In this document: one piece after another, positions 11,191-53,017 of the stretch
Position numbering within the stretch: position 1 is the stretch's first letter
How the letters are laid out: every line of letters starts with the position of its first letter
Translations under genes and position numbers: made by a program
The notes under the pieces: generated by a model
Databases searched by the model: none
Seen by the model: the letters and a program-made list of their open reading frames with translations, nothing else
What the model was told of the DNA's origin: nothing
Assembly (NCBI RefSeq): GCF_003666015.1
Contig: NZ_QPLT01000003.1
Span: 124,001-188,000, forward strand
Origin: Halorubrum sp. Atlit-26R
GTDB lineage: Archaea > Halobacteriota > Halobacteria > Halobacteriales > Haloferacaceae
Length of the DNA stretch: 64,000 bases
Direction of reading: 5' to 3'

Positions 11191-11650
11191 GACGGGCCTC
11201 AAGCTGACTCGTTCACACTCGTGAGCAACAGCCCAGACCGCTTATAAATCGATGCGGTGGCGCGTGCCTGCGAGGCCGCGGAGCGGCCGAGCAGCACCGC
11301 GCGAGGGAGTCAGTCGCCGGAGCGAAGCGGAGGCGACTGACGAGGCTGGGGAGGTGTGAGGTGCGGTGCGGTCGCGGTCGGGTGGGACTCAAAGGGGCAG
11401 TCGCGCGGGCGCCGTAGGCGAGGCAAGCACTGGAAGGAGCGAGCAACGCGAGCGACTGAAGCGCGCAGCGAGCGTACGGCGCCCGCGCGACTGGGGCTTT
11501 GGCGGTGTTCACAGTCGATCCGTCATCAGTTGTTTATAAGTGAACGTATGGGGCATTAGACGTGTTTTCCGCCAATTCGTCATCAGCCTTTTATAAGCAA
11601 GCGTCGGAGAATTTGGCGGCGTTCGCTGCGGCGCCAGCGGTCGCGTTCTT
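11191..11650. other. Intergenic region with structured repeat copy A and TATA-like direct repeats
   Basis: This 460-nt gap has no convincing protein gene. Most of it is copy A of a dispersed element (11243-11507). Downstream, two 20-nt direct repeats starting CGTCATCAG and ending TTTATAAG (11521-11540 and 11578-11597, 17 of 20 identical) carry TATA-like cores that could drive transcription antisense to the purC 3' end. A third TTTATAAG overlaps the purC stop codon. Confidence 0.7.
11243..11507 (+). repeat. Dispersed hairpin-rich element, copy A (candidate structured RNA)
   Basis: Copy A resembles copy B at 52711-52987 in inverted orientation. In order it holds TTATAAAT, GGCGCGTGCCTGCGA, a short hairpin (11274-11279 with 11283-11288), a 10-bp hairpin (GTCAGTCGCC, 11309-11318, with 11332-11341), the linker GAGGCTGGGGAGGTGTGAGG, GGGACTCAAAGGGGCAG, and a 19-bp perfect hairpin (11398-11416 with 11475-11493, loop 58 nt), ending GACTGGGGCTTTGG. 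The linkers match copy B while the stems differ but remain paired. A TATA box at the left end would allow its own transcription. Function is unknown: an ncRNA or a non-autonomous mobile element are the two main options. Confidence 0.8.
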
Positions 11651-12697
11651 TTATAAGTCGTCGGCCGCGTCCAGCGCCGCCTCGATCCCCGGAACGTCGA
11701 ACCACTCGCGGTCGGTGTACGCGTTCGTCCCGGCCGCGTACAGGTCCGAGACGGCCTCGACGACCGCCGTCGGAAGCGGCTCGGGCTCGCGGTCGCAGAG
11801 CTCGCGCCAGTCGTCGATGTCGCGGCCCGCGACCGACTCCTTCGCCTCCTTCACGGCGTCGACCCAGTCGGGGTCGTTCGCCTTGTACCACTGGCGGACG
11901 ACCTCCTTCGAGATGCCGCGACCACCGTACGAAAATCGGTTCTCGTCGAAGGTGCCGACCACGTCCGCGACCCGGAGCTCGCCGTCGACGTAGAGGCACT
12001 CGATCTTCCCGTCCTCGTGGACGAATCCGGTCGCCTCGGCGCGCTCGGTGACGACGCGGTTCACGTCGAGCGCGAGCGATTCGAGGGCGTCGACATCCGC
12101 GACCCCCGCGATCTCGTCGGCCTCGGCGCGGGTCAGGTACCGGTCCTGCTGCTCGTACTTCGTCGAGAACTCCACGACCGGCTCCGGGAGGTCGGCCGGC
12201 TCGTCGGGCCAGTCGCCGTCGGGCCCGCCGAGGTCGTCGAGGCCGAAGTCGGCGGGCTCTCTGCGGCGCCGCAGACTCGACCCGACCGGAACCCGGTTGC
12301 GGAAGACGACCTCCAGCGGAACGAGGTAGTTCTCCCCGCCCGCGGCGTGGAACGCGTCGTAGTCGTAGCCGGCGTGGGGGCCCTCGTACGGGAGGTCCGG
12401 CACCTGCGTCAGGTCGATGGCCATCTCCGTCGGCGGGGCGCCCGCCTCGTCGAGCGGCACGACATCCCCGGAGTCGGCGTCCGCGACCCCTCGGTAGTGG
12501 GTCGGGACCCCCTCGCGCTCCAGCAGTTCGAAGTTGAACGCGCCCATGGTACAGAGGCTCGCGCCCTTGTTCGGGATCGCGTCGGGCATCTGCCCCCAGT
12601 CGAACACCGAGTAGGCGTCCGTGAAGACGAACCGCCCCCGACCGAGGCCCTCGGCGGTCGCCGGCTCGTCGACGCGGAACTCCTTGACGCTCGTCAT
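11651..12697 (-). CDS. purC: Phosphoribosylaminoimidazole-succinocarboxamide synthase PurC
   Basis: PurC condenses CAIR with aspartate, using ATP, in purine synthesis. The 348-residue protein begins [20 protein letters not shown] with [47 protein letters not shown] and [25 protein letters not shown], which fit the SAICAR-synthase ATP-grasp-like fold in its longer haloarchaeal form. The frame stays open upstream to 12793, but the ATG at 12697 gives the family N-terminus. The stop codon TAA overlaps a TTTATAAG element. No other purine gene is adjacent. Confidence 0.93.
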
Positions 12698-27443: not shown

Positions 27444-28054
27444 AGCGACCGACGCCCCGCCGCGACCGACGCGGTCGGCCCCGACTCGCCGGGCCGGCGA
27501 TCCTCATACCAACATAAACAATTATGAAGGATACGCTCGTTAGTCGAGTCGTGCCACCCGTAGTACACGACTGACGCACGCTCGACGGCGGGGACGACGG
27601 CCGGTCCCGGCGGTCCGAGCACGCGCGAGGCGACCGAGACCGAACCGACGACCGACCGATCGGGTCCATCTTCGAACGCGGCTGACGACGGTGCGACCGA
27701 TGCCGACGACGGAATCGAAGACCTGCCGACCGCAGCCGAGGCGATCGCGCAGTGTGCGGCGACGTTCGACTCGTCCGACACCCGGCGGATCGCGAACGGG
27801 ACCGACCGCTGGAACGAGTACGCTGGCTCGTCGCACTGACGGCGCGGCCGGATCCTTTTATTCCACGGCGCGACTACCGACGAGCGGCCGATGACGAACC
27901 ACCGCTCCGAGCCGGACTCGGCACCCGGCGACGACGAGCCCTATGAGTGCCGAGGCCACGCTTTCCCAGACGCCGCGCACCCGCCCGCCGCGGAGCGGTC
28001 ACCGTCGTCGCCACTTCCGAAGTTGTCTTTCCGGTCGGGCGTGAACGGGAGGCC
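27444..28054. other. Intergenic region with little secure coding
   Basis: Apart from the startless ORF, this 611-nt region holds two TATA-like sites (about 27513-27525 and CCTTTTATTCC at 27854-27864). An ATG at 27891 lies about 30 nt after the second, but its frame gives a non-conserved-looking peptide. It may be a leader of the winged-helix gene at 28055. I see no RNA gene or repeat. Confidence 0.5.
27564..27839 (+). pseudogene. Startless ORF, possible gene remnant
   Basis: One frame is open from just after a TAG at 27561 to the TGA at 27837 and reads like a haloarchaeal protein (ATDADDGIEDLPTAAEAIAQ, then RRIANGTDRWNEYAGSSH), but contains no ATG, GTG or TTG in frame. Upstream, a TATA-like element (ATAAACAATTATG, about 27515) precedes a GTG at 27551 that reads VPPVVHD and then hits TGA. 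A frameshift near 27573 would join the two. This may be a decayed gene, a sequencing error, or chance in GC-rich DNA. I do not recognise a family. Confidence 0.3.
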
Positions 28055-52490: not shown

Positions 52491-53017
52491 GTCCGTACGA
52501 ACCCGTCGCCGACTTTTAACGGTTGTTCTTTCGGGCAGGGGGAGTCAGCGGTTCGCACACCATAGATATCGGGTAACTGGCGGTGAACCACCCATTCGGC
52601 GAGCGACGCTTCTTCAGTACGTGTATATAAAAGATCTCGCGATACCGAATGGAACGCTAACGAATCTCTAGCCGCTCACTTATAAATAGTCGATACCGGG
52701 GCGGCCGTGACCACCTCCAAAGCCCCAGTCGCGAGGAGCCCGTACGCTCGCTGCGCTCCTCACTCGGTCGCTACCGCTCCCTCGTTGCGGTGCTTGCGTC
52801 GCCTACGGGCTCCTCGCGACTGCCCCTTTGAGTCCCGCCCCGCACCGCACAGCAACCGCACCTCACACCTCCCCAGCCTCGTCGGCCTCCCTGCGGTCGG
52901 CCGACTCCCTCGCGCGTGCGACTCGCGGCCTCCGCTTCGCTCCGGCCGCTCGCAGGCACGCGCCAACGGCTCGTTTATTTATAAGTCGTGTCCACACAGG
53001 GTCGAAGGCACCCTCGA
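52491..53017. other. Intergenic region holding repeat copy B
   Basis: The 527-nt region contains the L11 promoter, a stretch with an AT-rich GTATATAAAAG element (52622-52632) that could start a transcript rightward, another TTATAAAT at 52680-52687, and then copy B of the dispersed element (52711-52987). I see no real coding sequence; the frames that cross the repeat are artefacts of its GC content. Confidence 0.7.
52711..52987 (-). repeat. Dispersed hairpin-rich element, copy B (candidate structured RNA)
   Basis: Read on the minus strand it has the same order as copy A: CTTATAAATAAAC, GGCGCGTGCCTGCGA, a hairpin with GCGGCC and GGCCGC arms, GTCGGCC paired with GGCCGAC, GAGGCTGGGGAGGTGTGAGG, GGGACTCAAAGGGGCAG, and a 19-bp perfect hairpin (52726-52744 with 52804-52822, loop 59 nt), ending GACTGGGGCTTTGG. 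Compared with copy A, the 19-bp stem differs at four internal pairs, all compensated. In copy B the flanking GCGCGTGC and GCACGCGC can also pair and enclose the first hairpin. It lies between L11 and an MFS gene. Confidence 0.8.

Follow-up and report, generated by a model that had tools for sequence, protein, structure and literature searches.

A high-copy dispersed element of Halorubrum with three hairpins that are replaced as modules

A REP unit is a short (~20–40 nt) single palindrome with a GTAG/GGAG foot. Haloarchaeal MITEs are among the subjects discussed in the Haloquadratum paper (PMC3119063). A survey of stem-loop repeats in 40 bacterial genomes does not mention haloarchaea (PMC2267715). 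We analyzed a window of 64,000 nucleotides from Halorubrum sp. Atlit-26R (contig NZ_QPLT01000003.1), which holds two copies, A and B, of a ~250-bp element that comprises three hairpins (P1, P2, and P3) and conserved linkers. An earlier note, made from the letters of this window, had stated that no named family was known to match the element, and this was right for Rfam 15: the E-value search gave nothing credible for the element, and the only match at the gathering score lay elsewhere in the window. That match, at 27886–27957 on the plus strand, was the C/D box RNA sR-tMet, which scored 79.2 bits, above its gathering score. The openly licensed literature on haloarchaeal repeats, structured RNAs, and promoters contained no description of the family, and it has apparently not been described before.

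Copy A is located at 11242–11507 on the plus strand, and copy B at 52711–52987 on the minus strand. Both copies were read and aligned. They lie on opposite strands and share their linkers in the order given by the earlier note, and their stems differ in sequence while retaining pairing, as it had claimed. The four both-arm changes that it counted in the long stem were directly legible (CAGTCGCGCGGGCGCCGTA/TACGGCGCCCGCGCGACTG in copy A vs CAGTCGCGAGGAGCCCGTA/TACGGGCTCCTCGCGACTG in copy B). Copies A and B folded better than dinucleotide-shuffled sequence (z = -5.1 and -5.8, respectively), and 0 of 200 shuffles were equally good.

In copy A, all features are on the plus strand. The TATA-like motif TTATAAAT was read directly at 11242–11249, which corrects the earlier note; the motif was found at the same position in 113 of 193 copies. 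Hairpin P1 (11260–11302) has the form GCGCGTG.../...CGCGC with tandem G.A pairs and a variable upper stem. It is followed by hairpin P2 (GTCAGTCGCC...GGCGACTGAC, 11309–11341), the conserved core linker GAGGCTGGGGAGGTGTGAGG (11342–11361), and hairpin P3 (CAAAG-GGG-CAGTCGCG...CGCGACTG-GGG-CTTTG, 11390–11501). The cmsearch match covered 11259–11361 with 98.2 bits. A second correction is that copy A extends 3' past 11507 as 57–60-bp repeats to ~11657; direct reading gave three tandem units (57, 57, and 60 bp, 11487–11657), each ending with TTTATAAG.

In copy B, all features are on the minus strand: the TATA-like motif TTATAAAT (52977–52984), P1 (52912–52963), P2 (GTCGGCC...GGCCGAC, 52881–52905), the conserved core linker (52861–52880), P3 (52718–52830), and 3' unit(s) with TTTATAAG (52629–52735). 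The cmsearch match covered 52861–52964 with 64.8 bits. Orthologues of copy B in other species had up to six 3' units of 51 or 57 bp. Within the region 52491–53017, copy B occupies the spacer that precedes the start of rpl11. At this spacer, the core was present in 17 of 30 species, with 0–6 tandem 3' units, and in some other species the conserved rpl11 leader almost directly abuts the upstream gene.

The common plan of the element was read from 227 unique copies. The order is the TATA-like motif (59%), P1, GCGCGAGGGA, P2, the core, a variable CGGTGC-rich stretch, GGGACTCAAAGGGGCAG, the long hairpin P3, CTGGGGCTTTGG, and the 3' units. The consensus of P1 is GCGCGTG C CTGC GA ... GA GCAG CACGCGC, and P2 often combines a GCGAAGC apex with a GGA/GGA internal loop. 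At their feet, the hairpins have GAGTC/GACGAGG and CAAAGGGGCAG/CTGGGGCTTTG. The 3' end consists of one to several 51–60-bp units, all with the terminal TTTATAAG, which are sometimes identical within one locus and different between loci. The class I intergenic repeats of Halovirus HF2, a haloarchaeal virus, are similar in length (56–58 bp) and in having AT-rich promoter-like motifs (PMC8707807). However, their motifs TCTTTAAGTC and CGTCTNNTAGAG differ from the 57-bp unit of the element, and kinship was therefore rejected. A viral origin was also rejected, because phage records and viral contigs searched for the family held no copies and the 57-bp unit had no phage match.

The earlier count of two copies is correct for the window but not for the genome. 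A DNA search of the own genome gave 40 scored copies at 81–87% identity or better. When up to 3 mismatches were allowed, the 20-nt core gave 87 forward and 100 reverse matches, vs 1 match for the reversed control. The expectation of more copies was thus confirmed by ~187 in the own genome and many in relatives. Of the 392 genomes searched in the class, 47 were Halorubrum, and every one of these carried the element, with 15–195 copies each. Multiplied by ~265 bp, the copy number corresponds to ~1.2% of the genome here (187 copies) and 1.7% of genome G153 (195 copies). Outside Halorubrum, matches were patchy (40 of 345 genomes, mostly 1–20 each), and high counts were seen in G196 (121), G162 (135), and G172 (43). 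At least 98 loci were named, all of them Halorubrum among the matches listed. With a covariance model built from Halorubrum copies, six genomes outside Halorubrum, representing two families, gave 55 matches, and the core pattern alone was present in three further families. The relatives in other haloarchaeal genera, patchy in distribution, share two hairpins and the linkers; the P3 module was missing or different in most non-Halorubrum genera with covariance-model matches.

Two variant arrangements were observed. In G162, which belongs to the same order and another family, loci L288, L294, and L298 contain tail-to-tail inverted copy pairs without P3, joined by GTAGCTAGCTC / GAGCTAGCTAC palindromes; they represent a second architecture of the repeat family. 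Copies at L011, L019, L028, and L034 have an extra repeat in their flanks, with GTATTTAAATGGTCG... on the upstream side and CTCACTTACGACGTACTACACGTACTCCC on the downstream side, and apparently form a composite subfamily.

The earlier note had proposed that pairing is conserved over sequence, to be checked with a covariance-model search. The search returned many copies, and covariation in the larger alignments was far above chance. In 32 Halorubrum copies, 98.2% of cells in the P1+P2 structure were paired, vs 85.6 ± 0.7% in shuffled alignments, and 14 pairs were altered on both sides. The covariation score was 0.320, vs 0.104 ± 0.009 for shuffled alignments. Slid controls for this structure collapsed, and RNAalifold recovered the identical P1+P2 structure. 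In P3, positions 6, 11, and 12 were 90–97% Watson–Crick in 189 copies, vs 43–61% predicted by independent columns. For 30 copies from other genera, in an alignment fitted to the structure model, 91.4% of cells were paired vs 67.8 ± 1.1%, and 24 of 30 pairs were changed on both sides. The covariation beyond chance that is looked for in a structured ncRNA is therefore present, though module swapping generates much of it.

This swapping was observed at fixed sites. Most sites were common to genomes G000 and G153 (20/23 and 23/26). Where the flanks of a site were at least 94% identical, the mean identities of P1, P2, and P3 were 0.75, 0.66, and 0.78, respectively, whereas those of random copies were 0.70, 0.64, and 0.69. 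Stems at one orthologous site thus differ about as much as the stems of unrelated copies, and P1 and P2 were already different in pairs with 96–98.7% flank identity. Across copies, similarities of P1, P2, and P3 were nearly uncorrelated (0.06–0.14). An assembly artefact was rejected as the cause, because the single- or few-contig genomes G153, G038, G006, and G148 also differ at site B. Since even orthologous copies have had entire hairpins exchanged as modules, the differences between A and B, which had been read as compensatory changes, are no evidence of stepwise compensatory mutation. The simplest account of the exchange, we infer, is short-tract gene conversion. Exact tracts common to copies of one genome reached 78 nt. 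Shared tracts within a genome were no longer than those between genomes, so they do not reveal the donor of each swap. Hairpin replacement within ~1–4% flank divergence is a measurable readout of gene conversion among dispersed repeats in archaea. It also calls for caution, as covariation among repeats may stem from module swapping and does not by itself prove stepwise selection on RNA.

Despite the swapping, almost every module of the pool retains its pairing. One explanation is that the elements are inert old repeats, in which pairing persists mechanically through gene conversion and through the correction of imperfect palindromes by template switching, with no selection on folding. The whole-hairpin swaps agree with it, and so does the P3 top, which is inverted relative to the consensus in 5 of 189 copies (e.g., L017 and L032), as expected from recombination between inverted arms. 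However, palindrome correction does not explain why conservation across haloarchaeal families extends to the linkers, which lie outside the palindromes, and the mismatches in the stems are strand-specific. We consider inert repeats quite improbable.

For the strand signal, isolated stem mismatches were counted. G.T mismatches occupied 92 cells and A.C mismatches 27 (49:21 distinct contexts, p = 0.001), and the ratio in other genera was 16:3. The tandem G.A pairs of P1 were found in 183 of 193 copies, with G.A far above its complement C.T. With looser mismatch criteria, the G.T excess was gone (56:57 contexts). Mutation in the linkers was also about twofold asymmetric (C-to-T about twice G-to-A), and mutation bias could account for part of the strand signal. 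The G.T excess and the tandem G.A pairs suggest that the given strand folds single-stranded, as RNA or DNA.

If it folds as RNA, the copies may constitute a multi-copy ncRNA family, transcribed from their own promoters and acting in trans, e.g., through protein-binding purine-rich linkers. Strong covariation in two taxon sets, the tolerance of G.U-like mismatches on one strand, the near-fixed position of the TATA-like box, and linkers conserved across families are all consistent with this. If transcribed, the elements would rank among the most numerous archaeal RNA gene families. However, the own TATA box that the earlier note assigned to the element is doubtful. The hexamer is absent in 41% of copies. 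Where present, it is mostly 17–22 nt before the first stem, with a peak at -22 to -19 from GCGCGTG. An archaeal TATA box lies ~28 nt upstream of the transcription start (PMC8553660). The hexamer is therefore ~10 nt too close to P1, transcription would begin inside P1, and the motif does not explain an RNA with the whole P1. Neither a T-run nor any further 3' end signal was evident in the downstream consensus. A copy number that varies between 15 and 195 in a single genus, the lack of copies in most haloarchaeal genomes, and the inverted P3 tops also argue against an ncRNA family. An RNA gene with its own promoter is unproven, and we regard the ncRNA family as unlikely.

The genomic context was analyzed with genes called by a simple codon-usage script. 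None of 160 copies was inside a gene. The copies were located between convergent genes in 82 cases, between tandem genes in 69, and between divergent genes in 9, whereas all gene pairs comprised 247 convergent, 814 tandem, and 248 divergent ones. Convergent pairs thus accounted for 51% of copies vs 19% of gene pairs, and only 6% of copies were divergent. A cis-acting element at gene ends, such as an insulator, a transcription barrier, or a chromosome-organising site that works via extruded DNA hairpins or bound protein, might produce this pattern. The retention of sites between species and a spacing slightly evener than random (CV 0.84 vs 0.85–1.15) would also agree. However, the majority of convergent pairs have no copy, and promoter avoidance yields the identical pattern. 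Orientation in tandem contexts showed no preference (31 vs 38), so a sense 3'-UTR or terminator role was rejected. A 5'-leader role was rejected because copies are rare between divergent genes. Strand polarity along the G153 chromosome or by replichore was not significant (p = 0.09). We judge a gene-end function improbable.

Of the two readings offered by the earlier note, the ncRNA with its own TATA box was weakened, and the second, a non-autonomous element of a mobile or repetitive kind, fits best. The elements are intergenic, their sites are mostly kept between close species, their copy number varies between species, and their modules are replaced whole. We therefore favor, at about even chances, a high-copy dispersed structured non-autonomous repeat, REP/BIME- or MITE-like, that is inherited in place and has its hairpins overwritten by conversion. 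The conserved linkers would serve as homology arms, and short-tract conversion among the many copies would overwrite P1, P2, or P3 separately. The given strand, as RNA or exposed single-stranded DNA, may fold and present the linkers to a putative trans-acting protein. Recognition by such a protein would keep the fold and linkers conserved, and may have allowed past spread. A wider version is less likely, and we put it forward tentatively: haloarchaea-wide structured elements with fixed addresses, whose interchangeable hairpin cassettes are continually rewritten, with the other copies as a pool, by a dedicated or strongly favored conversion, and whose strand-specific fold, as RNA or single-stranded DNA, is recognized by a putative host factor.

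Several observations speak against the favored reading. The check for terminal duplications and empty sites proposed in the earlier note gave neither a target-site duplication nor a clean boundary at the aligned sites. No duplication was present at the four filled/empty site pairs aligned, including the clearest one, in which 559 bp at the filled site corresponded to 10 bp at the empty site; filled and empty sites differed by messy blocks with no sharp boundary. No autonomous partner was visible either. The ends are CTTATAAAT...ATTTATAAG, in which TTTATAA is itself near-palindromic, and no autonomous element sharing these termini was found. Within ~2 kb around 269 copies, flanking proteins included no recurrent family; the largest clusters were attributed, without individual inspection, to the element's own open frames. 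Plasmid records gave three matches, with no transposase adjoining the three annotated copies. For an active mobile element, so few plasmid copies and the lack of copies in phages and viral contigs are unusual. In addition, the conservation of linkers across haloarchaeal families hints at more than passive junk.

Compared with described systems, the repeat shares an intergenic location and a common predicted secondary structure with bacterial stem-loop repeats, e.g., ERIC (PMC2267715). It resembles haloarchaeal MITEs and other non-autonomous insertion-sequence derivatives in that its copies are short, non-coding, and dispersed, vary in number, and are patchily distributed. It also has TTTATAA at both ends. 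The differences from MITEs are that no target-site duplication, clean empty site, or parent element was found, and that the copies are mostly at sites common to species and have covarying stems. REP/BIME repeats, which are associated with RAYT transposases (PMC2817692), are similar in occurring at more than 100 per genome, in both orientations, as extragenic hairpin-forming sequences, and the element is likewise a high-copy extragenic hairpin repeat. However, REP/BIME repeats are short single palindromes. The element is neither a short single palindrome nor provided with a GTAG/GGAG foot, and no recurrent partner transposase was seen within ~2 kb of the copies; instead, it is an archaeal repeat whose three hairpins and long conserved linkers span ~250 bp, and it swaps its hairpins as modules.
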